Below, piece by piece: positions 31,067-42,711 of a stretch of 64,000 nt of DNA (its first letter is position 1; each line of letters starts with the position of its first letter). The notes below the pieces were generated by a model. It was not told the origin of the DNA. It did not search any database and saw only the letters and a list, made by a program, of their open reading frames with translations. The position numbers were made by a program, and so were the translations under genes. Origin of the DNA: Tunturiibacter gelidiferens (GTDB taxonomy: Bacteria; Acidobacteriota; Terriglobia; Terriglobales; Acidobacteriaceae); contig NZ_JACHEB010000002.1 of the NCBI RefSeq assembly GCF_014201335.1, forward strand, positions 1 to 64,000, given 5' to 3'.

Positions 31067-32383
31067 ATGAGGAATCTAACCGCAGCAATCGCAACCATGA
31101 ATGAAGACTTCACGACCGCGAAGAAATCGATGCAGACGGAGCTTGCCGTGCTTCGTCATATACATGCGACGCCAAAGATTTCACGCGTGGAACTTGCAGA
31201 TCTGTCCGGTCTTTCTACCGCAGCTATAACCGGTATCGTCAATTCACTGATCTCGCTGCAGTTGCTGGAGGAAGATCGCGGTCCTGTGAAAGGAGCAGGA
31301 CGTAAGCGAGTCGGGCTGACGATGAAGTCCGATCTTGCTTATGTCGCGGGCATCGATCTTGGCACGATCAATTTACGGATCTGCATTACGGACATCAACG
31401 GTGAGGTCCTGGCGTCTAAAGAAGTGCCCAGTGAGATGTCAAAGGGCCGCGAAGATGTTCTTTCGCGACTGTTCGCTTTGGTTCGTGAGGTTTTAAGCTC
31501 AGCGAACCTTGACGTGGGTTTGTTGCGAGGAATCGGAATAGGTTTTTCGGGAGTGATCGACGTAGAACGTGGAATGGTTTTGTCTTACCCTCGGCCGGGG
31601 CAGATAGAGCAGTGGAAGAATATGCCTCTTCGAGCGAGGATGGAGCAGGAGTTCGGCTTACCTGTACTTCTTGAGGACAGCGTTCGTGCGGTGGCTGTGA
31701 TGGAGAGGTTTTTGGGAGCCGGACGCGACTTTTCTAATTTTGTATACGTGGATGTCGGTGCAGGGATTGGCGCAGCGATCTTTATCGGTGGCTGTCTCTA
31801 TCGAGGCCATGGCGGCAGCGCCGGCGAGTTCGGCCACATAACAGTGGATGAAGATGGGCCACTCTGTTGCTGTGGTAGTAGGGGATGTTTAGAGGCAGTT
31901 GCCTCTGGAACGACTATGATCGAATCGATAAAAGTTGCGATTCGGCGAGGTGTATCTTCAAAGATCACCGAGACGACGGGTTACAACTTCGATGAGATTA
32001 CGATTGAGTTGATTGCGGCGGCGGCCCGAGAGAACGATAGCCTGTCATATCGGATTTTGAGCGAAGCGGCCTCTCATATCGGCGCTGCTGCAGCCGATCT
32101 TGTGAATCTGCTGAACCCTGCCGCGCTGGTGTTTGGCGGCGCAGCTTTTCGCGCAGCGCCCGGCCTTCTTGTCGATCGTATTCAGTCGACGATTCGTCAG
32201 CGTGCGATGGAGAAATCCGTAAATGATGTCCAGATTAAAGTGTCGACACTCGATGGAAATGCTGGTGCGCTGGGCGCGGCTCGTCTGATAGCGATGCGGC
32301 TTGTCGAAGGGATCTACTTTAACGTGGCCGGCCTGAATAGGCCGCGGCGCAGTCCTATGCGGATTTATCGTAACGTTGGCTAG
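31067..32383 (+). CDS. ROK-family transcriptional regulator
   Basis: 438 residues. An N-terminal winged helix (AVLRHIHATPKISRVELADLSG... to about residue 85) precedes a ROK sugar-kinase-like domain: YVAGIDLGTINLRICI for the nucleotide site, GIGFSGVIDVERG, VDVGAGIGAAIFIGG and the zinc-binding CCCGSRGC motif. NagC/XylR-like ROK repressors bind a sugar effector and regulate its genes. It is divergent from the DegT aminotransferase (165 bp between), which is a likely target. Start could be ATG 31067 or 31097; neither has a strong ribosome site. Confidence 0.9.
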   Translation: MRNLTAAIATMNEDFTTAKKSMQTELAVLRHIHATPKISRVELADLSGLSTAAITGIVNSLISLQLLEEDRGPVKGAGRKRVGLTMKSDLAYVAGIDLGTINLRICITDINGEVLASKEVPSEMSKGREDVLSRLFALVREVLSSANLDVGLLRGIGIGFSGVIDVERGMVLSYPRPGQIEQWKNMPLRARMEQEFGLPVLLEDSVRAVAVMERFLGAGRDFSNFVYVDVGAGIGAAIFIGGCLYRGHGGSAGEFGHITVDEDGPLCCCGSRGCLEAVASGTTMIESIKVAIRRGVSSKITETTGYNFDEITIELIAAAARENDSLSYRILSEAASHIGAAAADLVNLLNPAALVFGGAAFRAAPGLLVDRIQSTIRQRAMEKSVNDVQIKVSTLDGNAGALGAARLIAMRLVEGIYFNVAGLNRPRRSPMRIYRNVG

Positions 32384-32583: not shown

Positions 32584-33657
32584 TTATTTTTTCTTACGGA
32601 ATGCAGTCTTGGCGCGCCCTGGGATGGCCGCGCGTCCCGATCCGGTAGTGGATTCACCAATAATTAGCTCAGCCTGTAACGTAATTGTTACTGGAGTGGG
32701 ACTCATTTTGCCGGACAGCCGACTTATCAATAGTTCGCCGGCTTTGACTCCCAGATCATAGGCCGGTTGAACAACAGAGGTAATGCTTGGCCGCAGCATG
32801 CGGCCGCCGGGGATCTCGTCGAAGATGGCGAGAGCGACCTGATCAGGGCAGGAGATCGCGAGCTCATTGAGTCCCTGAAGAGCTCCGAGTCCCATCGTTC
32901 CATTGGCGACAAAGAGAGCCGTAGGTCGCGGATGACTCAGAAGAAGGTCTTTGGTCATCTTGTAGCCGCTGTCAAAACGGAAATCGCCTTCGCGCACGAG
33001 GGTCCGTTCTATCTTGATATTCGCTTCCTCCAGGGCCATTTCGTACCCTTTGTAGCGGTCGCGGGCGGTTTGAAGCCACGACGATCCATTGATGATGGCG
33101 ATCTTTCGATGTCCGAGGTCGACCAAATGGCGAACGCACATCGCCGATCCCCTGATGTTATCTACGACGACGGAGTCAACGTTGAGCCCATGCGGGGTGC
33201 GATCGAGGCATACTACTGGAATTCCCATATCAATCGCCTGCACGATATGAGAGACGTCATTTGCTGGATTCGGTGCAACGACGGCTAGCATGCCATCGAC
33301 TCTATGAGTGCGCAGCATGGAAAAGACCTGGCGTTCGCGTTCAACGTTATCGTCGGTATTGAAGATAGTGAGTATGTACCCATGCTGAACAATCGCGCTT
33401 TCAACCCCGCGTAGTACAAGAGGAAAGAAAGGGTTCGTAATATCTGAGATGACGATACCGATGACACTGGACCGACGGGATTTCAGGCTTCGAGCATGAT
33501 TGTTTGGGTGATAGTTGAGGTCGCGCATCGCTTGTCCCACACGCCCCTGCAACAGCCTACTGACTGCGTTGCTGTTGTTGAGAACGTTGGAGACGGTGCC
33601 GACCGAGACATTGGCTCGGCGGGCAACCTCCTGAATAGTGGCGTTACGCTTGTGAAT
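32584..33657 (-). CDS. LacI-family regulator with apparent ATT start codon
   Basis: A 357-residue LacI/GalR repressor. The N-terminal HTH reads ATIQEVARRANVSVGTVSNV followed by LNNSNAVSRLL; then NYHPNNHARSLKSRRS (hinge) and a periplasmic-binding-protein fold starting VIGIVISDITNPFFPLVLRG. The first standard start codon in frame (TTG 33552) lies after the HTH. Upstream there is an in-frame TAG (33667-33669), then AGGAG overlapping it, then ATT at 33655-33657 six bases on. No ATG, GTG or TTG lies between TAG and the HTH, so an intact repressor needs the ATT. AUU starts are known for E. coli infC and pcnB. It sits next to two TTGAATCRGTTCAA operators and is the likely regulator of the nucleoside genes. 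Confidence 0.85.
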   Translation of the reverse strand: MHKRNATIQEVARRANVSVGTVSNVLNNSNAVSRLLQGRVGQAMRDLNYHPNNHARSLKSRRSSVIGIVISDITNPFFPLVLRGVESAIVQHGYILTIFNTDDNVERERQVFSMLRTHRVDGMLAVVAPNPANDVSHIVQAIDMGIPVVCLDRTPHGLNVDSVVVDNIRGSAMCVRHLVDLGHRKIAIINGSSWLQTARDRYKGYEMALEEANIKIERTLVREGDFRFDSGYKMTKDLLLSHPRPTALFVANGTMGLGALQGLNELAISCPDQVALAIFDEIPGGRMLRPSITSVVQPAYDLGVKAGELLISRLSGKMSPTPVTITLQAELIIGESTTGSGRAAIPGRAKTAFRKKK

Positions 33658-33865: not shown

Positions 33866-33919
33866 TTGACAGCGATCTGTTGAAAAAGCATAGAATGGCG
33901 CGGGATTGAATCAGTTCAA
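33866..33919 (+). promoter_or_regulatory. Promoter and LacI-type operator of the UPS permease
   Basis: A perfect -35 TTGACA (33866-33871) is followed by CATAGAAT (33889-33896) as -10, giving a start near 33903. The dyad TTGAA-TCAG-TTCAA (33906-33919) begins just past it, centred about +10, the position of lac O1. The operator differs by one base from that at 41799-41812. Confidence 0.75.
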
Positions 33920-34023
33920 AATATTTACGTAACTGAATCCTCTCGTTGGAAGACTGGGTTGTGGAGACCTCATTTGTTTACGCGACTGCGACAGGAGTTT
34001 CTGATCTCGGCAAGGATGGTGGA

Positions 34024-35019
34024 ATGTTCATCGTAAATAATTCGGCGATAGCATTTTTATTTTGCGCCATAACCATGATGGGCTGGGGCTCCTGGGCTAA
34101 TACGCAGAAGCTGGCTGGAAAAGAACGCTGGCCCTTCGCTCTGTACTACTGGGACTATGCTCTCGGAGTCGCTCTGCTGGGCGTGGTGTTCTGTTTCACT
34201 CTGGGCAATTTCGGTTCGGCGGGAACTAGCGCTGTCGCGAATCTCCATCATGCCTCCGCGGGCTCGCTGCTGCGTGCGCTTGCCAGCGGCGCGCTGTTCA
34301 ACCTTTCCAACATATTGCTGGTGATCGCGATCGACGCCGCGGGTATGTCACTTGCCTTCCCGGTGGGTGTCGGGCTTGCTCTCGTAATCGGCACGGTGGC
34401 GAGTTACTTCCATGCGCCGAAGGGCAACCCTGTACTGCTGGGATCGGGCGTTGTGCTGATCGTATTTGCGATGATCATGTCTGCTATGGCCACACGGCAG
34501 GTTCAGAAGCAGCGTTCGGTTAGTGCGAGCCGTGGACTGTTGTTTGCGATCGCAGCGGGATGTTTGATGGGATTCTTTTACCCGCAGCTGATCTCGTCGA
34601 TGTCGCCAAACTTCAACAGCGAACCAATTCAACTAGGATATTTAACACCCTACACGGCACTTCTGCTGTTCGGCATCGGCTTACTGCTGAGTAACGTGCT
34701 AATCAACACAGTGTTCATGCGCGTACAGGGTTCGACGTACCGAGAGTATCGAGAGGCAAAGCCGAAGCTGCATTGGTTGGGTCTGTTGGGTGGTGCCATC
34801 TGGATGATCGCGCTTAGCCTTAACGTCATCGCATCAGGCGTGGCGGGGCCTGCGGTGTCGTATGCGCTGGGACAAGGGGCGACGCTGGTGGCTGCTCTCT
34901 GGGGTGTATTTGTGTGGAAGGAGTTTCGCGGAGCGGCAACCGCCACACGAACGCTTGTCGCGCTTATGCTGATTGGTTACACCGCAGGACTGGTGCTGAT
35001 AGGCTCCGCGATCATGTGA
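34024..35019 (+). CDS. UPS/GRP-type permease (DMT superfamily), probable base or ribose importer
   Basis: 331 residues with ten hydrophobic helices. The segment LAFPVGVGLALVIGTVASYF followed by PKGNPVLLGSGVVLIV matches the plant and bacterial ureide permease (UPS) pattern, and the end ALGQGATLVAALWGVFVWKEF is typical of the wider glucose/ribose-uptake (GRP) DMT group. UPS proteins carry allantoin, uracil and related bases. With nucleoside hydrolases and ribokinase beside it, import of nucleobases, nucleosides or ribose is the best guess. The first hydrophobic residues follow ATG 34024; the open frame upstream (to 33946) lacks support. Converges with rbsK. Confidence 0.8.
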   Translation: MFIVNNSAIAFLFCAITMMGWGSWANTQKLAGKERWPFALYYWDYALGVALLGVVFCFTLGNFGSAGTSAVANLHHASAGSLLRALASGALFNLSNILLVIAIDAAGMSLAFPVGVGLALVIGTVASYFHAPKGNPVLLGSGVVLIVFAMIMSAMATRQVQKQRSVSASRGLLFAIAAGCLMGFFYPQLISSMSPNFNSEPIQLGYLTPYTALLLFGIGLLLSNVLINTVFMRVQGSTYREYREAKPKLHWLGLLGGAIWMIALSLNVIASGVAGPAVSYALGQGATLVAALWGVFVWKEFRGAATATRTLVALMLIGYTAGLVLIGSAIM

Positions 35020-35101
35020 GCAGCTGAATGGCGCTTTAAGCGTTACGTTGCGGAATAATTATGTGTTTCGAAGCGCAACAGGGCGTTGAACGTAATTGGT
35101 T

Positions 35102-36040
35102 TTATTTTTTGTAAGAAGCTTGTTTGTACTGTTCCAACTCAGCTCTTCGTGGCATCGAGGGAGCTGTTCCGTGTCGCGTGACCGAGATGCCGGCAACGAC
35201 GCACCCGAAGCGTGCGGCATCTTCGAGGCTCATTCCCTCTGAGAGCGCCACCGCAAGGCCTGCGTTGAATGCGTCTCCTGCGCCCGTGGTGTCGATTACG
35301 GGTCCGGCGTTGAAGGCTTCGATGTGCACGGTCATCGACGAGGTCTTGACTAGAGCGCCGCGAGCGCCCAGGGTGAGTATGACGTTCCGCACACCGCGTG
35401 CAAGCAACTGACCGGCTGCGCTCTCTGCGTCTTCGAGGGACGCGACCCGACGGCCGGTGAGAGCCTCGGCTTCGCTCTCGTTGGGCGTCAGATAGTCGCA
35501 TAGTGCGAGGGTCGTGTCGTCCAACGCACAGGCGGGCGCGGGGTTGAGGATAGTAGGAACGCCGAGCCCGTGCGCAGTGTTCAAACCATGCACCACGATG
35601 GGCAGAGGAAGCTCCAACTGGGTCATGAAGACGGCCGAGCCGGCTATTTGGGTCCGGGCAAGATCGATTTCATCTGTTGTGAGAGCGTTTGCTGCGCCCG
35701 GAGTGATGACTATCGCGTTCTCGCCTTTGATTTCGTCGATGATGATGGCTGCAGCGCCGGTCGTATCGCTATCCGAGGAGAAGAGAAACTGCGTGTCGAC
35801 GCCTTCCTCTTTGTAGGTCCGCCGAGCGATGTCGCCGAAGTTGTCGCTTCCCACCTTGCTGATGAAGTGGACTTGCGCACCGAGACGAGCGGCGGCGACC
35901 GATTGGTTTGATCCTTTACCGCCGGGCCCAAGACGAAATTCGGAACCGAGAACTGTCTCTCCCCAAACGGGCAGACGATTTACTCGGAAGGCCAGATCGA
36001 TGGCAAAGACTCCCATGATGGCAATGGGTTTACTGTTCAT
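35102..36040 (-). CDS. rbsK: Ribokinase RbsK
   Basis: 312-residue PfkB kinase that phosphorylates ribose at O5. GEFRLGPGGKGSNQSVAAARLGA-type N-terminal signature is present (here LGPGGKGSNQSVAAARLG), then the C-terminal PfkB motif DTTGAGDAFNAGLAVAL with the catalytic Asp, and NPAPA. GGAG stands seven bases before ATG 36040. It is the last gene of the probable operon behind two nucleoside hydrolases, so it would consume the ribose they release. Other PfkB substrates are possible, but the GGKGxNQA signature and the context favour ribose. No deoC or rbsD is near. Confidence 0.9.
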   Translation of the reverse strand: MNSKPIAIMGVFAIDLAFRVNRLPVWGETVLGSEFRLGPGGKGSNQSVAAARLGAQVHFISKVGSDNFGDIARRTYKEEGVDTQFLFSSDSDTTGAAAIIIDEIKGENAIVITPGAANALTTDEIDLARTQIAGSAVFMTQLELPLPIVVHGLNTAHGLGVPTILNPAPACALDDTTLALCDYLTPNESEAEALTGRRVASLEDAESAAGQLLARGVRNVILTLGARGALVKTSSMTVHIEAFNAGPVIDTTGAGDAFNAGLAVALSEGMSLEDAARFGCVVAGISVTRHGTAPSMPRRAELEQYKQASYKK

Positions 36041-36108
36041 GTCAGGGCTCCACAGCAGTCATAGATTGGTCTATTAACGTTGTTGGATGAACTCTATTAT
36101 CGGTCACT

Positions 36109-37236
36109 CTAGTGGCTTTGACTTAGTTCGAGCTGAGGGTTCTTCGCTCCCGGGGTTGGCGAGGACATCAGCTGCAGGAACATCTTCTGAAATTTGGGCC
36201 AGTCGACATCCATTTGGACATGGGCCTTTTGAAGATCGAGGCCGGGTTTATCGTCATCGGTCCAGACGATGGTGTCTCCGTAGCTGATGCCTTTATCGAC
36301 GCTGACATCGAAATAGACGTAGCGCTCCCGCGTGATGAGGCTTGGGTCAAGCCACGCGGCCGCAGCGAGCTCGTCCCATAGATAATCTCCGGGGCGGCGC
36401 GTGTAGCGGGCGATGTACTGGCCGGATGGAGAGCTGCTCTTCTTCAACTCGTCGAGCATTTCCTTCGTGAGGTGGGTCTCGATCGAGACGTCCACCGGGG
36501 TGACTGTGATCTTCGGCCAGTGCGCATGGAAGACGATGGTTGAAGCTTCGGGGTCGAACCAGAGATTGAATTCATGACGAGGACTGTCAATGTATTCCTT
36601 ATCGTCGGTGTGCGGATTGAGGCTGCCTCCCATGATGACGAGCTCCGCTGCGAGCTCGGCGAAGTGCGGTTCGAGGCTGATCGCTTGGGCCACATTAGTC
36701 ATAGGCCCGGCAGCGTAAATCGTGACCTGATGCGGGTACTTGTGCACCATGCGAATCAAAAAGTGCGCCGCGTCTTCGTCCGACACTTTTGTTGTGGGAT
36801 TTCCTTCTTGCAGCTTGGGGACATCAAAGGGACCATGCTTTGGACGGAAGCTACTCCAGGCGCCTTGATAGACGACCTTCCCATAGATCTGCTCCCAAGC
36901 ATTGGTCCACTGCTGCGTTCTTACCAGAGGAGTAATCGCTCCTGCCATGACGGGAATGTCAGTGCGGCCAATGAGCTCCAGCAGACGTAGGGTGTGGGCT
37001 ACCTCTTCATCGCGCCATCCGTCTCCGGTGAGCACCGTGATGCCAAGCACATTGACGTGTGGAGACTGCAGAAAAACAAGCATCGAGTTCATGTCTGTTC
37101 CTGCTGGTCCGACTGCGTCCTGATCGATGATGACGTAGCGGGCATCCTGCGCGAGCACTGGTGGTGATGAGATTACAGCGAAAAGAATGGAGAAGAGAAC
37201 CAGAGACCAAAGCGAGCTCTTTCGTAGTTGTTTCAA
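36109..37236 (-). CDS. Exported nucleoside hydrolase-like protein, divergent active site
   Basis: 375 residues with a Sec signal ending VLA-QDA. It has the nucleoside hydrolase fold (VLGITVLTGDGW, PVMAGAITPL, YAAGPMTNVAQAIS, IMGGSL, EFNLWFDPEAS). The usual DTDPGxDD metal motif is replaced by DQDAVGPAGTD, and the His of the HDPLA motif is Trp in LWDELAAAAW. Similar changes occur in exported relatives; metal binding may be reorganised or the substrate different. The TTG start at 37236 has AGGAGG eight bases upstream. It follows the canonical hydrolase by 17 bp and precedes rbsK by 68 bp. The signal places it in the periplasm. Confidence 0.85.
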   Translation of the reverse strand: MKQLRKSSLWSLVLFSILFAVISSPPVLAQDARYVIIDQDAVGPAGTDMNSMLVFLQSPHVNVLGITVLTGDGWRDEEVAHTLRLLELIGRTDIPVMAGAITPLVRTQQWTNAWEQIYGKVVYQGAWSSFRPKHGPFDVPKLQEGNPTTKVSDEDAAHFLIRMVHKYPHQVTIYAAGPMTNVAQAISLEPHFAELAAELVIMGGSLNPHTDDKEYIDSPRHEFNLWFDPEASTIVFHAHWPKITVTPVDVSIETHLTKEMLDELKKSSSPSGQYIARYTRRPGDYLWDELAAAAWLDPSLITRERYVYFDVSVDKGISYGDTIVWTDDDKPGLDLQKAHVQMDVDWPKFQKMFLQLMSSPTPGAKNPQLELSQSH

Positions 37237-37253
37237 AGGAATTCCTCCTGAGA

Positions 37254-38408
37254 CTATCCGTTGTCCTGCTTATTTCCTGTAATGCGATCGACCAGCAGAC
37301 GGAAGAAGCTGTCCGGTCTAACGTCGACGGCAACCTTGGTGTTGGCTGTGAAGGCTTCTTCCGATGGTGTGACACGTGGACTGTTCTCGAAGGCAGCCGC
37401 GTATCGGATGGGGGCACGCTTCCATCCAACGCTCTCGCCCGCTGTGATGAGGCCGTTGGTCTCAATCTGCACCCGATAACTCTCGAAGGTAAGTATATCG
37501 GGACGGATCAGAGCGCTGACTGCAAGAGGATCGTGCAGGGTTGGGCCGCCCTTCTCTCCGTGCCCACGATAGGTTGCCATGATGGCGCGTGCGATACCGG
37601 CTGCAGCTCGGCTCGGCTTATTCGTACCGGCTTCGAGCTGACGGATATAGGGTTCGGTCAACTCGACCTTGCGAGTGACATCGAGGCCGACCATGGTGAT
37701 GGGGACTCCAGAGTTGAAGACGATGCTTGCTGCTTCCGGGTCGACATAAAAGTTGAATTCAGCCGCAGGCGTGACATTGCCGCCCGAGAGCGAGCCACCC
37801 ATCAACACGATGCTCTTGATAGCCTTTGCAAGACCTGGCTCCGAGCGAAGCGCAAGGGCAAGGTTGGTCAGTGGGCCGAGGCCGATCAGTGTCACCTCGC
37901 CCGGATGTTCCAGAACGATGCGGCAGATCAGCTCTGCGGCGTGTTCTTTTACAGCAGTGATTTTGGGCGGAGGAAGTGTGACGCCGCCGAGGCCGTTCTC
38001 TCCATGTGCATAGGATGCAGTCACCTGCTGCCGGATGAGCGGAGCTGAAGCACCGGCTGCCACTGGAATATCCGTTCGGTCGCAAATCTCGACCATACGC
38101 AGAGCGTTGGGCAGGGTGATCTCCAGAGGCAGATTACCGGCGACCGCGGTGACGGCCATAACGTTGAGCTCGGGCGAACGCATGGCCAGCATCAGCGCGA
38201 AGGCATCATCGACTCCCGGATCAGTGTCGATAATAACCTTAGCTGCCGTTGTCACTTCCGCGCGATGCGACGCCGTGGCCTGGGGCAGCCCATACGGTGC
38301 TCCGAATGCACGCGACGGCCCGTGAACCATCGCTGCGATCGCAGAGCCCGTTGTCACTTTCAAAAACATTCTGCGGTCTGGATTCCGCTGAAACCAATCA
38401 GGCTTCAT
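37254..38408 (-). CDS. Tat-exported inosine/uridine-type nucleoside hydrolase
   Basis: 384 residues. DRRMFLKVTTGSAIAAM is a Tat signal, so a folded, metal-loaded enzyme would reach the periplasm. VIIDTDPGVDDAFALML is the calcium-binding DxDxxxDD motif, followed by VTAVAGN, IPVAAGASAPL, IGLGPLTNLALAL, VLMGGSL, EFNFYVDPEAA and LHDPLAV with the leaving-group His. It should cleave ribonucleosides into base and ribose. It begins 35 bp after TonB receptor 3, which fits an outer-membrane importer feeding a periplasmic hydrolase. Base specificity cannot be read from sequence. Confidence 0.93.
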   Translation of the reverse strand: MKPDWFQRNPDRRMFLKVTTGSAIAAMVHGPSRAFGAPYGLPQATASHRAEVTTAAKVIIDTDPGVDDAFALMLAMRSPELNVMAVTAVAGNLPLEITLPNALRMVEICDRTDIPVAAGASAPLIRQQVTASYAHGENGLGGVTLPPPKITAVKEHAAELICRIVLEHPGEVTLIGLGPLTNLALALRSEPGLAKAIKSIVLMGGSLSGGNVTPAAEFNFYVDPEAASIVFNSGVPITMVGLDVTRKVELTEPYIRQLEAGTNKPSRAAAGIARAIMATYRGHGEKGGPTLHDPLAVSALIRPDILTFESYRVQIETNGLITAGESVGWKRAPIRYAAAFENSPRVTPSEEAFTANTKVAVDVRPDSFFRLLVDRITGNKQDNG

Positions 38409-38443
38409 GCCTTTTCTATCCTTCCATGATGAGCTGACGGTGA

Positions 38444-41400
38444 TCAGAACACGAACTTCAACGCGAACTGAATCAGGCGTGGATTATTTACGATCTGAGT
38501 GATCTGTCCGAATCCGGGAGAGTCCGTAGTAGTCCCCGGATTCGCAAACTGTGGATGATTGAAGACGTTGAAGACCTCGGTGCGGAAGACGAGCTGTGTC
38601 TCTTTAGGGAGGACGAAGGTCTTAAAGAGCGAACCGTCGAAGTTGACGAAGTCGGGGCCGTATAGCGGGGTGCGAGATGCATCTCCAAGGACGCCGGGAG
38701 CGGGGTCGACGAAACACGCTGTGTTGATGAACTCTGCCAATGACTGGTGAGCCGGAGGCGTATTGCAGATCTGATCGGGACGACTGCCGGTCGTTGTGCC
38801 TGCATTGTTGACGCCCGCCGAGAGCCCGAGAGGAAAGCCTGAAGCGATGTGCGTTATCAAATTCAACTGCCAGTTTCCGACCAACTCCTGCATCGGCGTG
38901 CTTACGCTGGAAGCAAACTTTTTGCCGCGCCCGAAAGGTAGTTGATAAAGAACGCTGGCGGATAGATTGTGCGTCTGATCCGTCACATTGAGTCCCTTGT
39001 CGGTATAGCCCCGGGGATTGAGAGGATACGCGTTCGGCGCCGGATTGAGCGGATAGTAAGGAACACCGATCAGCGAACCCAGGTCGTCGTAGAGACCGTT
39101 GTCGAATCCCTTGCTATAGGTGTAGGCAAGTAGGATGTAGACGCCGTTGTTGTAGGCGCGCTCTGCCTTTACCTGAAGCGAGTCGTAGCGCGACAGGCCG
39201 CGGTCGAGGAAACCGGTGATCGCGTTAAGATTCGGATACGGGCGCAGATTGGCGGGATCAACCTGAAGGCTGGGCGTGGCAGTGTTCAGCGGAAAGCCTG
39301 AGGTCTGCAGATGCGTCCCGCGAGATCCCGCATAACCGACCGTCAGAATGGTACCGGTGGGCAGCTCTCGCTGAATGTTCAGGTTGAACTGCTGAATTAT
39401 CCCAGGGTGAAAATTGGTGTTCTGACTGTACACGTTGCCCGTCAAGTTATTCACGTCTGGTGGGGTCGGCACCGGAAATCCACCGGACAGAGTTGTCACC
39501 GGGTATATGTCGTCGGCTTGGAACGCAAACGTGCCGTAGAAAGGAGGATTCAGGTCCAGCCCTTGTGCGCCGAGGTTCCATCCAGCGTCGTGAAGAATCG
39601 CGTAGCCTGCGCGAATGGCGTTCTTTGTGGAAAAGGGAGTGAAGCTGAATCCGATTCTTGGTTCGAAACCGCGGTAGTACGACTGAATCCCTGCCGAATC
39701 AGATGAGTTGACACCCGCGATCAGCATCTGGCCGGTTGGGAAGTCGAAGTTAGCCAGTCTCTTCTGCGATTCGACAACTGGTGTTGTGTAGTTCCACGCC
39801 AGGCCGAGCTGCACCGTCAAGTTTTTTTGGACCTTCCAGTTGTCCTGGAAGTAAGGGCGGAACTCCTTCCATCTGCGGCCAGAGACATCGCCCGAGAAAG
39901 AAACATCGTGTTCGCCGCTGCCGGGAGTGCCAAGCAGAAAGCTGGCGATGGGATTGCCGCTAGCCGAATTGAACGCGCCGTTAGTGAATCCTGCCGTGAA
40001 CAGGTTGTCGAACCCCATCTCGCCCATTGGAAAGGCGTTGCCAAGCTCGTTGAGCTGCATGAGGCGTATGCCGATGCCCATGGAAAACGAGTGTGCCCCA
40101 TGCACCAGCTCGAAATCGTCGCTGTACTGGAAGACGTTCGTTCCATCCTGAATGGGAGAAAATCCGCGATCGCCGAGACCCCAGTACCCCTCGTTGAACT
40201 GCGTGTTGAGCAACCCGCTGCTCAGGTAGGTTCCGAGATTGGCGTTGGGGATGCCAAGCTGCGTGCTCCAATCGGTGCCGTCTCCAAAGGACGTGATGTG
40301 ATCGAAGATGCGGTTATATCCGACGGTGAGCTGGTTGATCGCGTTGGTCGAGAAGATGTGCGTCTCGGAAATCGCCAGATTTCTTCCGCGATTCGCAAGT
40401 GTCTGATTGCTGGCATAACCTCCAGGCTGTGCACCGAAATCAGGAAGCCCAGAGGGTAGAAAGACAGTTGCCTGATCTCTGCTGAAGCGAGCGAAGGCCC
40501 GATCTTTATCCGAGAATACGTTATCGATTCGTATGTCGAAGTCGTTGTCGTTGAAGATCTGGTTTGGTACATCCACATAGTTCGCGGAAAGAACGCCGGA
40601 GACGTTCGGAGCCGGGAAGAAGTTGAGCATCTTGACCGCGATCGGGTCCAGCCGGTAGCCAGGAATGGTATTGCCCTGGAACTGAGTGCGGCTGGCGTTT
40701 CCAGTGACGGGATCGATGACTGTTGTGTTCGGATCGTAGATAGGAACCTCAGGAGATCCCGGGAAGGACTCCGTGAAGATGCCTTGGCGCTCGAGCATGG
40801 TTGGGACCTGGGTGAGCGAAGGAATTCCCTGAATGCTCTTTGTACCTTGGTAGTCAAAGAAGAAGAAAGTTTTATCCTTACGAATCGGGCCGCCGACTGA
40901 ACCTCCGAACTGGTTGCGGATGTACTTCGGATTAACCGGAGAGAAGTAACTGGTCGCGTTCAGATCAGTGTTGCGCAGGAAGTCGAAGAGCGTTCCGTGA
41001 AACTGGTTGGTGCCGGACTTGGAGGTGAGGAGGACGGTCGGACCCGCGCGTGTTCCGTACTCAACGGAGTAGTTGTAGGTGAGTACATTGAACTCTTGGA
41101 GCGCGTCGATGGAGGGCACAATGGAGATGCCGCCGGAGGTCAGCTCATTGTTGTCGACACCGTCATAGAGCCAGTCGGTGCGATTCTCACGCGATCCGCC
41201 GACCGAGAGGGAGAATGAGCCGCGGATAGAGGTCTCGCTGCTGCCGCCGCCTGCAAAGAAGTCATTGGGCTGATTGCCCGCAGAGGTTCCGGGAGCTAGC
41301 GTTGCCAACTCCACGAAGTTGCGCCCATTCAAGGGGAGGTCGGAGACCTGCTGAGAGTGAACGACCTGGCTCAGTGAAGAGTCGGTGGCTTCGACCGCAA

Positions 41401-41773
41401 CTGCATTGGCCTCTACTGAGATGGCTGACGTGACTGAACCGGGCTGCAGTGTGAAGTTAATCTCTGGCGAGGCCTGATTTTCGAGAAGAATGCCATTCTT
41501 GATAGCACTCTGGAAGCTGGGCGCAGCGACCTGGATCTTGTAGTTGCCGATGGGCAGCAGATTGGCGACGAAACGACCGTTATTGTCGGTAGTCACGACA
41601 CGAGCTCCGTTTGTGTCGACGTTGGTGACAGTGACGACTGCCTCGGCGATCACGGACCCCGCTGGATCCGAGATTGTTCCTGTGATGGTCGCTGTAGCTT
41701 GCGCCTTCGCGATGGCCGGAAGGAGCATAAAGCAAACGAGGAAGAAAGAGGTTGCCAGATATTTGAGTCTCAA
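38444..41773 (-). CDS. TonB-dependent receptor, Oar type (receptor 3), head of nucleoside operon
   Basis: About 1109 residues. The start is TTG at 41773: GGGAG lies six bases upstream and the product begins at once with a signal peptide (YLATSFFLVCFMLLPAIAKA-QAT). An earlier TTG at 41812 lies inside the operator and has no ribosome site. Carboxypeptidase-regulatory domain: GTISDPAGSVIAEAVVTV; plug: QQVSDLPLNGRNFVELATL and GPTVLLTSKSGTNQFHG; barrel end LIQFALKFVF. It is followed at 35, 17 and 68 bp by two nucleoside hydrolases and ribokinase, all on the same strand. By position it is the candidate outer-membrane importer for nucleosides or oligonucleotides, a ligand not usually assigned to Oar-type receptors. 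Confidence 0.93.
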   Translation of the reverse strand: MRLKYLATSFFLVCFMLLPAIAKAQATATITGTISDPAGSVIAEAVVTVTNVDTNGARVVTTDNNGRFVANLLPIGNYKIQVAAPSFQSAIKNGILLENQASPEINFTLQPGSVTSAISVEANAVAVEATDSSLSQVVHSQQVSDLPLNGRNFVELATLAPGTSAGNQPNDFFAGGGSSETSIRGSFSLSVGGSRENRTDWLYDGVDNNELTSGGISIVPSIDALQEFNVLTYNYSVEYGTRAGPTVLLTSKSGTNQFHGTLFDFLRNTDLNATSYFSPVNPKYIRNQFGGSVGGPIRKDKTFFFFDYQGTKSIQGIPSLTQVPTMLERQGIFTESFPGSPEVPIYDPNTTVIDPVTGNASRTQFQGNTIPGYRLDPIAVKMLNFFPAPNVSGVLSANYVDVPNQIFNDNDFDIRIDNVFSDKDRAFARFSRDQATVFLPSGLPDFGAQPGGYASNQTLANRGRNLAISETHIFSTNAINQLTVGYNRIFDHITSFGDGTDWSTQLGIPNANLGTYLSSGLLNTQFNEGYWGLGDRGFSPIQDGTNVFQYSDDFELVHGAHSFSMGIGIRLMQLNELGNAFPMGEMGFDNLFTAGFTNGAFNSASGNPIASFLLGTPGSGEHDVSFSGDVSGRRWKEFRPYFQDNWKVQKNLTVQLGLAWNYTTPVVESQKRLANFDFPTGQMLIAGVNSSDSAGIQSYYRGFEPRIGFSFTPFSTKNAIRAGYAILHDAGWNLGAQGLDLNPPFYGTFAFQADDIYPVTTLSGGFPVPTPPDVNNLTGNVYSQNTNFHPGIIQQFNLNIQRELPTGTILTVGYAGSRGTHLQTSGFPLNTATPSLQVDPANLRPYPNLNAITGFLDRGLSRYDSLQVKAERAYNNGVYILLAYTYSKGFDNGLYDDLGSLIGVPYYPLNPAPNAYPLNPRGYTDKGLNVTDQTHNLSASVLYQLPFGRGKKFASSVSTPMQELVGNWQLNLITHIASGFPLGLSAGVNNAGTTTGSRPDQICNTPPAHQSLAEFINTACFVDPAPGVLGDASRTPLYGPDFVNFDGSLFKTFVLPKETQLVFRTEVFNVFNHPQFANPGTTTDSPGFGQITQIVNNPRLIQFALKFVF

Positions 41774-41797
41774 GTTGAGCTCCCTACGTTCAAATTC

Positions 41798-41856
41798 TTT
41801 GAATCGGTTCAAAACTCGTTGACAGGCCTATACTCTCGGTAAAAGATCACTGTCAA
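41798..41856 (-). promoter_or_regulatory. Promoter and LacI-type operator of the receptor 3 operon
   Basis: On the minus strand TTGACA (41856-41851) and TATAGG (41832-41827) form a sigma-70-type promoter with 18-bp spacing, start near 41820. The dyad TTTGAA-TCGG-TTCAAA (41798-41813) is centred about +14. Its core TTGAATCGGTTCAA matches the permease operator in 13 of 14 positions. Confidence 0.75.
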
Positions 41857-41864
41857 CAAGAAAT

Positions 41865-42711
41865 TCAACGAACGCGCGATTTGAAACGAACGCGCGATGC
41901 TTCATCTCGCAATACGCGATCGTTACCAGTCTTCGACTGTGCCTCGGGTATCAGCCATTCTCCATCGTCAAGATTTACGTTGATCCACCGTGCTTGTAGC
42001 AGTTCAGATTTGCGGACCAAGGTCAGGAGAATGATGTGCAGAGTCAGTTTGAACTGTCGGCGGATGTTGCTTCGATCGAGAACTTGAAGGTAGATCTTCA
42101 GTTCGTCTGGAGACAGCGGGCGAGCTCGCGTTATAAAGCGCATGGGAGTTGCGTGTGTTGGATTCGATGTGACGATCCCACAGACAATTGCATAATCAAA
42201 AATGCGCTTGAGTAGGTTACGAAGCTGGGCCGCGGCTGACTCGAAGCCGTTATCGCGTTTCTTGAATACGAGTCGCTGTACGTCCTGAGCTGTGATGTCT
42301 CTCAATGGCCAAGTGCCAACGCGGGGTAAATCTCTTTTTCGAGATAGCGGCGAAGCTGCTTAGTGTCTTTTCGATCTTTCTCGATCACCTCTTTGAAATA
42401 ACGCTCACTGAAATCGGCGACGGAGGTGGAGTTGGCGAGTGCGAACTTCTCTAGCTGCTTTTGCTTTGCCGGAGACACGCCTTCATGAACTGCTTTCGCA
42501 AGCTCGTCGCGTTTCGATCGCGCAACCTTCAGACTCACAAGGGGGTATTGGCCCAGCGAAACCTTCTCCGTCTTCCCCTTGAACTGATATCTATATCGCC
42601 AGGGAGCTGCGCCAGTCGGCATCACCTCAAGAGCGAGGCCCCTACCATCGCTTACGGCATAGCGAATTGCTTGGGGCTTGAGGCTTTAATTTGGAGTTCG
42701 GTCAGCGCCAT
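41865..42711 (-). pseudogene. Decayed tyrosine recombinase (phage-type integrase)
   Basis: Three pieces of one integrase in different frames. The N-terminus MALTELQIKASSPKQF (ATG at 42711) shifts frame near 42660 into RYAVSDGRGLALEV, continuing through WRYRYQFKGKTEKVSLGQYP and the core-binding SAM-like helices. A second shift near 42302 leads into RDITAQDVQRLV and the catalytic-domain segment LTLVRKSELLQARW, with the first active-site Arg. The HxLR and Tyr boxes are missing; the frame ends at 41865 in unrelated sequence. It is thus truncated as well as frameshifted, a remnant of an integrated element. The remnant now abuts the receptor 3 promoter. No tRNA or att core was identified. Confidence 0.85.
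41867..41898. repeat. 14-bp tandem direct repeat
   Basis: AACGAACGCGCGAT occurs at 41867-41880 and again at 41885-41898, four bases apart, where the broken integrase frame ends. It may mark the join produced by the deletion of the integrase 3' end. Confidence 0.6.

Follow-up and report, generated by a model that had tools for sequence, protein, structure and literature searches.

Two near-identical dyads as probable operators of a local LacI-family repressor at a receptor, nucleoside hydrolase and ribokinase cluster of Tunturiibacter gelidiferens

The gene cluster and its two outer promoters

We analysed a 64,000-nucleotide stretch of the genome of the soil acidobacterium Tunturiibacter gelidiferens (contig NZ_JACHEB010000002.1, positions 1 to 64,000; hereafter the window), and in it a gene cluster carrying a nearly identical 14-bp dyad at each of its outer ends, O1 and O2. 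From left to right, the cluster consists of a LacI-family regulator gene on the minus strand, a permease gene on the plus strand, and a minus-strand run that is read from the right (a TonB-dependent receptor-like gene, two genes of the nucleoside hydrolase family, NH2 and NH1, and a ribokinase gene) and converges on the permease. Given this gene order, O1 and O2 sit at the outer promoters, which between them would transcribe the entire pathway.

The putative operator O1, TTGAATCAGTTCAA, occupies positions 33906-33919 on the plus strand, and O2, TTGAACCGATTCAA in the sense of the receptor gene (TTGAATCGGTTCAA in forward-strand letters), positions 41799-41812 on the minus strand. As a preliminary description of the locus had reported, a single difference separates them, A or G at position 8, and each is preceded by a perfect TTGACA. 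Its account of both as dyads of the LacI style holds in part: both are dyadic, but O1 is imperfect, with 5 of 7 pairs and a CA centre, and O2 has 6 of 7 pairs around CG. The sites of this family are even palindromes usually centred on CG; a review of LacI-family regulons (PMC4052901) gives other centres as rare but reported.

The predicted promoter P1 (33866-33896, plus strand) combines TTGACA (33866-33871), a 19-bp spacer and TAGAAT (33891-33896); P2 (41827-41856, minus strand) combines TTGACA (41856-41851), an 18-bp spacer and TATAGG (41832-41827). Both begin with TTGACAG, and the distance from TTGACA to the dyad is 40 bp for O1 and 44 bp for O2. With the transcription start set by convention 7 nt after the -10 element, O1 would cover about +4 to +17 of P1 and O2 about +9 to +22 of P2. 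The predicted centres, about +10.5 and +15, are close to the +10 and +14 given previously. A sigma-70 scan listed neither promoter: the P1 spacer of 19 bp is outside the allowed 16-18 bp, and the P2 -10 element lacks the required final T.

The regulator (32584-33657) belongs to the LacI family, with PF00356 at 64.2 bits and the Peripla_BP_3 domain (PF13377) at 121.4 bits, both above cut-off, and its recognition helix reads VSVGTVSNV. It scored far below the cut-offs of the RbsR equivalogs (224 against 382 bits for NF047341, 220 against 531 bits for NF007743) and below the UriR cut-off (132.6 against 550 bits). Its start codon is probably ATT (33657-33655), behind AGGAG. An apparent ATT start, 5-6 nt behind AGGAG or GGGAG, is seen in all four congeneric genomes (the window and the loci that we call L164, L081 and L097). 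The window has no place for ATG, GTG or TTG between an in-frame TAG immediately before this codon and the helix-turn-helix immediately after it, and Granulicella sp. L60 alone has an in-frame ATG, eight codons upstream.

The best Pfam match of the permease (34024-35019, plus strand, ATG 34024 being the chosen start) is Ureide_permease (PF07168; 52.4 bits, cut-off 27); TMEM144 and Sugar_transport (PF06800) match more weakly, also over their cut-offs. No solved structure matched it at a meaningful E-value. The ribokinase RbsK (35102-36040, minus strand) scores 326.7 bits against a cut-off of 299.65 for TIGR02152 and falls below the narrower NF008353 (280.6 against 341). A second permease-ribokinase pair exists in the source genome (L166:9990-11912, on contig C3 of G000 at about 85.2-87.1 kb); it is about 40% identical, with matches in several frames.

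Both hydrolases match IU_nuc_hydro. Judged by eye, NH1 (36109-37236, minus strand) begins with a Sec-type N-terminus, MKQLRKSSLWSLVLFSILFAVISSPPVLAQ, and NH2 (37254-38408, minus strand) with a twin-arginine-type one, MKPDWFQRNPDRRMFLKVTTGSAIAAM, containing DRRMFLKV. NH2 has the DTDPGVDD motif, and NH1 a divergent N-terminal Asp motif, DQDAVGPAGTDMNS in place of the DTDPGVDDAF of NH2. NH1 is still 82-97% identical in three congeners, with other relatives at about 53%; its activity may differ. The receptor-like protein (38444-41773, minus strand; probable TTG start at 41773 behind GGGAG) has an OMP_b-brl_4 beta barrel (PF25183) and CarboxypepD_reg (PF13620), with Plug marginally over its cut-off.

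Rarity and conservation of the two sites

We scanned for the pattern TTGAAnCRnTTCAA, as the preliminary description had suggested. The exact pattern gives three matches at two places of the window, while 100 dinucleotide-preserving shuffles of it gave a mean of 0.06 and none reached three. In the whole source genome (6,178,831 bases, 23 contigs) it occurs at the places of O1 and O2 and nowhere else. A chance origin of the sites is ruled out by this rarity together with the shuffles. The loosened pattern is not unusual: at two mismatches or fewer, the window holds 13 matches for 7.6 expected, a number reached by 10 of 100 shuffles. At one mismatch, 49 other places were found in the source genome, nine of them outside open reading frames (ORFs) of at least 100 aa. 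Beside these 49 places no nucleoside or ribose genes were recognised by eye, and one, L104, precedes another LacI gene. A wider regulon in the source genome was thus rejected after inspection of all 49.

The cluster is uncommon in the genus. Among 21 other same-genus genomes, scanned for LacI matches at E <= 1e-100, two encode a regulator more than 80% identical, G168 (Granulicella sp. S190) and G630; Granulicella sp. L60 came from a separate collection, and another set of LacI matches was restricted to E <= 1e-70. All three of these congeneric genomes retain the complete cluster with both sites, and their LacI proteins are 86-90% identical to that of the window. In S190, for example, LacI is 89%, the permease 95% and the receptor 93% identical; the permease site reads TTGAATCAGTTCAA, the receptor site TTGAAACGATTCAA. 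Elsewhere, the exact pattern was found once more in G168, at a third place, and once more in G630, both times inside ORFs. Twenty-nine further G168 loci, a part of its one-mismatch places, were also inspected; two are non-coding, and one of these, L144, which lacks the C/G centre, lies 5' of a further receptor gene next to the cluster.

The two sites are conserved in different ways. When the LacI-permease intervals of the four genomes are aligned, 106 columns out of 408 are invariant, and O1 lies within an invariant block of 36 bp (33885-33920) that takes in the -10 element, the spacer and the operator; the next longest invariant run is 8 bp, and outside the block 70 of 372 columns are invariant. 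In O2, the arms TTGAA and TTCAA and the central CG are invariant across the four genomes, and changes occur only at positions 6 and 9, which the pattern leaves free. For O1, the four genomes together contain five copies, and all five have CA at the centre; a metagenome-assembled genome (MAG) of Candidatus Solibacter has it too, in the opposite orientation. Judging from the letters, such a fixed centre suggests a deliberately weaker operator.

G630 has a second copy of the permease-ribokinase region (L180:7173-9081). There, the permease is 86% identical with a frame change near residue 300, the ribokinase has no match to its first 61 residues, and the same operator is kept; no LacI match was found in the 20-kb stretch around it. 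The segment between the -10 element and O1 in the invariant block reads GGCGCGGGA, and the second G630 copy is one letter off it.

One would wonder whether the sites are conserved as a feature of the promoter or of the transcript, in the initially transcribed region or as RNA, their likeness coming from common descent of promoter DNA. The invariant block at O1, which runs through -10, spacer and dyad alike, and the TTGACAG of both promoters would fit this idea. However, O2 keeps both arms while its free positions vary, the arms and their symmetry are found again in remote lineages whose flanking DNA differs, and the type of dyad goes with the recognition helix, as described below. We consider this explanation hardly credible.

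At the receptor end, the promoter is flanked by an inverted repeat, GTTGACAG ... CTGTCAAC (41818-41857), whose inner arm is partly kept in G630 and S190 and lost in L60. An integrase-like ORF (41865-42305, weak Pfam match) lies immediately upstream of this promoter. The similarity to S190 ends near this ORF, while G630 shows similarity throughout the aligned piece; the region 41865-42625 is possibly an old insertion edge.

The recognition helix and the type of dyad

Scanned with the window LacI, the named genomes gave a single other locus above 33% identity, in the Candidatus Solibacter MAG (57%). There, a dyad scan found GTGAACCGATTCAC before lacI-rbsK, 137 bp before lacI, and by eye we noticed two further sites, GTGAATCAGTTCAT upstream of the permease, which is 63% identical, and TTGGAACGATTCAT upstream of a receptor. 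Each of these sites is two letters off the congeneric pattern, and TTGGAACGATTCAT is without TGAA on one arm. In the distant family members G015 and G135, whose LacI proteins are 34-36% identical, ATGAATCGTTTCAT or ATGAAACGTTTCAT precedes the permease and the same core precedes a receptor. In the MAG and in these two, the distance from TTGACA is also much like that in the window.

We then compared regulators and dyads over 41 loci, which count one LacI gene twice (L067 and L096). From their non-coding DNA, the dyad scan took every 14-mer centred on CG in which 6 or more of the 7 pairs match, and it ignored the arm sequence. A regular expression classified the recognition helices; it read none in L067-L069, L072, L073, L075, L076, L079, L080, L089, L091, L095 and L096, the last four of which were read by eye. 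Among the 15 loci assigned by the expression to the class of the window LacI (G/N, with G and N at the two key positions, as in xGTVSN), 12 have TGAAnCGnTTCA. The symmetric TGAA type is absent from the non-coding DNA of all nine A/N loci (six by the expression, three by eye), three of which have TTTAAnCGnTTAAA-type dyads, with mixed dyads besides in L095. It is likewise absent from the six G/H loci scanned (L070, L074, L077, L094, L169 and L170).

The dyads could also be operators of another regulator, either a LacI paralogue or the protein of the ROK family encoded at 31067-32383. The source genome has 15 LacI-type helices and this NagC-like ROK regulator is next door. However, among the 15 PF00356 matches of the source genome the xGTVSN helix is found in the window LacI only, and TGAAnCGnTTCA follows the G/N helix class across lineages. 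As for the ROK protein, the surroundings of the cluster examined in S190, L60 and G630 gave no match to it, while a LacI of the window type is present in each. We thus regard another regulator as improbable, and the adjacent LacI (32584-33657) is the likely binder of both O1 and O2. In the published LacI-family code (PMC2978694), residues 17 and 18 in LacI numbering correspond to bases -5 and -4 and residue 22 to base -6, so that the code ties the helix positions compared here to the operator bases in question. This code was derived for the TVSR group, whereas the window LacI is TVSN.

The spacing between promoter and dyad also recurs. Of 22 sites beside G/N-helix regulators, 21 have a perfect TTGACA 34-45 bp upstream (19 of 20, plus both L084 sites); the sites were taken from earlier matches and not at random, and four of the genomes are close relatives. 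The second tandem site of L167, whose TTGACA is at 59 bp, was excluded from the 22. As background, TTGACA was found 36-48 bp before 36 of 20,000 random positions, and 34-45 bp before 288 of 38,898 non-coding positions of 12 G/N loci, true sites included. The spacing was rejected as a trait of every related operator, being present at one of seven A/N-class sites (L091:7035). In two distant family members, abutting TGAA-type dyads precede receptor genes (L167:2363-2390 and L168:2924-2951, the second dyad of L168 being imperfect).

Proposed regulation and the substrate of the pathway

Palindromes near the regulator and the pathway genes, kept upstream of orthologous genes in the three congeners and more loosely in the Solibacter MAG, are what one would look for in a local LacI regulon. 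We propose that O1 and O2 are very probably the operators of one local LacI-family repressor (32584-33657), which would silence the permease gene and the receptor-NH2-NH1-ribokinase operon until ribose or a nucleoside releases it. The small regulon of the preliminary description, which has a site at either extremity of the cluster and the neighbouring LacI as likely binder, finds support in rarity, conservation and helix correlation, and regulon control of these two transcription units appears well supported by the comparison of sequences. From the same material we infer binding, repression, the inducer, the operon structure, the export of the hydrolases and the substrates of receptor and permease.

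Several observations weigh against this reading. The CA centre of O1 departs from the CG that is usual in the family. For LacI autoregulation, reported for 72% of the studied LacI-family regulators (PMC4052901), no second site was found near the LacI start in the window or in the congeners; in the Solibacter MAG a site lies 137 bp before lacI. O1 does not by itself join the LacI gene to the cluster, as claimed earlier: 249 bp separate it from the LacI start, and its place is downstream of promoter P1 of the permease. The helix correlation has its exceptions: the G/N loci L071, L172 and L174 gave no TGAA dyad in the scan, L096, G/N by eye and missed by the regular expression, has TGAGACGTCTCA instead, and the A/N locus L165 carries, beyond the reach of the dyad scan, a TGAA-type match at a receptor gene's start codon. 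Four of the 12 dyad-positive loci being congeneric orthologues, about nine are independent. The choice of the 22 sites for the TTGACA spacing belongs here too. Finally, the operator core before the permease is absent in 27 of 29 sampled family loci (L022-L050) and present in L032 and L037. A general operator for all permease-ribokinase loci was rejected on this count, and the arrangement thus belongs to particular regulator lineages.

Concerning the mechanism, a parallel exists with lac O1, where the repressor dyad is centred near +11 of a strong promoter and repression is classically put down to occlusion or blocked initiation. Here as well, a LacI-family repressor would have a dyad near the predicted start of a strong promoter, and in its ligand-free form it would cover the initially transcribed region of both promoters. 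With predicted centres this close to that of lac O1, occlusion or blocked initiation would be enough, and the elongation roadblock put forward earlier is not indicated. The differences are that each of the two sites here has a promoter of its own, 7.9 kb from the other, and that the half-site is another one. In addition, no leucine-heptad tail was seen by eye at the LacI C-terminus, so that tetramer looping over 7.9 kb is unlikely.

In the presence of ribose (or of a nucleoside), the repressor would leave its sites and the whole pathway would be made as a set. The receptor would bring nucleosides into the periplasm, the exported hydrolases would free ribose, the permease would import it and the ribokinase would give ribose-5-phosphate. 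If both hydrolases are exported, as their N-termini look by eye, ribose must cross the inner membrane.

A different reading of the same regulon is that nucleosides are taken up whole: the permease would carry nucleosides or bases, the hydrolases would be cytoplasmic and a nucleoside would be the inducer. This is in line with Ureide_permease as the best Pfam match and with two nucleoside hydrolases in the gene run; moreover, some LacI-family regulators control nucleoside pathways (PMC4052901). The gene neighbourhoods point the other way. Apart from the window, we examined 29 permease loci, chosen for the best scores from the 94 genomes, out of 150, that had a match. The permease adjoins a ribokinase in 24 of these 29 loci, and a nucleoside hydrolase lies within about 1.5 kb in two; in the longer stretches L167-L175, hydrolases occur in one of nine. 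The export-type N-termini of both hydrolases and a permease score over the PF06800 sugar-transport cut-off also speak against uptake of whole nucleosides, which we find rather unlikely. From the neighbours and the N-termini, ribose uptake is a better reading of the permease than the nucleoside type assumed in the preliminary description, and ribose is the likelier inducer.

In the alignment of the LacI effector domain with E. coli RbsB (27%), residues that we take to be ribose contacts (NPFF, DR, R141, F164, N190, D215 and Q235) are kept in the window LacI. Unfortunately, every LacI of the panel has them, even regulators next to clusters that by eye look unrelated to ribose (L091, for example, looks arabinose-like). 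They do not discriminate between inducers; we rejected them as proof of the inducer and retain them as compatible evidence at most.

The gene set recalls the rus system of Bacteroides, in which an outer-membrane receptor, a nucleoside hydrolase, a ribokinase and a permease serve to obtain nucleoside ribose. The rus system relies on SusC/SusD and an unrelated regulator, and no SusD-like gene is present among the cluster genes scanned. A functional parallel comes from Lactobacillus sakei, where the transporter RbsU and a ribokinase are encoded in rbsUDK-rbsR under a local, ribose-induced LacI-type RbsR (PMC3146418). The present cluster differs in having an outer-membrane receptor and a pair of nucleoside hydrolases, and in its two separate operators; we noticed no rbsD-like gene in it, no dedicated search having been made. 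The same source mentions a uridine operon of Corynebacterium in which a ribokinase, a uridine transporter and a nucleoside hydrolase are under the local repressor UriR together with RbsR; that operon has a uridine transporter, and the window LacI is far below the UriR cut-off. Nuh of Pseudomonas aeruginosa, a periplasmic nucleoside hydrolase that converts adenosine to ribose and adenine under quorum-sensing control (PMC5522865), is a precedent for periplasmic hydrolysis, here with a local LacI-type repressor and a TonB-dependent receptor instead of quorum sensing.

Local LacI-family regulons with lac-O1-like operators are thus a well-known kind of system, and what is new is this particular putative regulon, which is well supported by comparison. 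Our literature searches returned no paper on acidobacterial LacI operators at TonB-dependent receptors, which is not proof of absence, and none on nucleosides and ribose in Granulicella; the string "acidobacteri" is absent from the main text of the LacI-regulon review (PMC4052901). Acidobacteria are abundant in soil and have many TonB receptors, on whose control little was found in print. The present case offers a testable operator, a way to check the helix code beyond the TVSR group, and ribose as a specific substrate prediction for a bacterial branch of the ureide-permease family. Beyond this, we tentatively suggest a broader picture, possible though doubtful, in which TonB-fed periplasmic scavenging of ribose occurs in acidobacteria, ureide-type permeases act as ribose importers and one LacI protein works on two unequal operators, with CG at the receptor and a fixed CA at the permease. 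If the operators are indeed unequal, derepression would be ordered, with the permease first. If the arrangement holds more widely, acidobacterial repressors with this kind of helix would control promoters having a perfect TTGACA, and would do so at an almost constant spacing.

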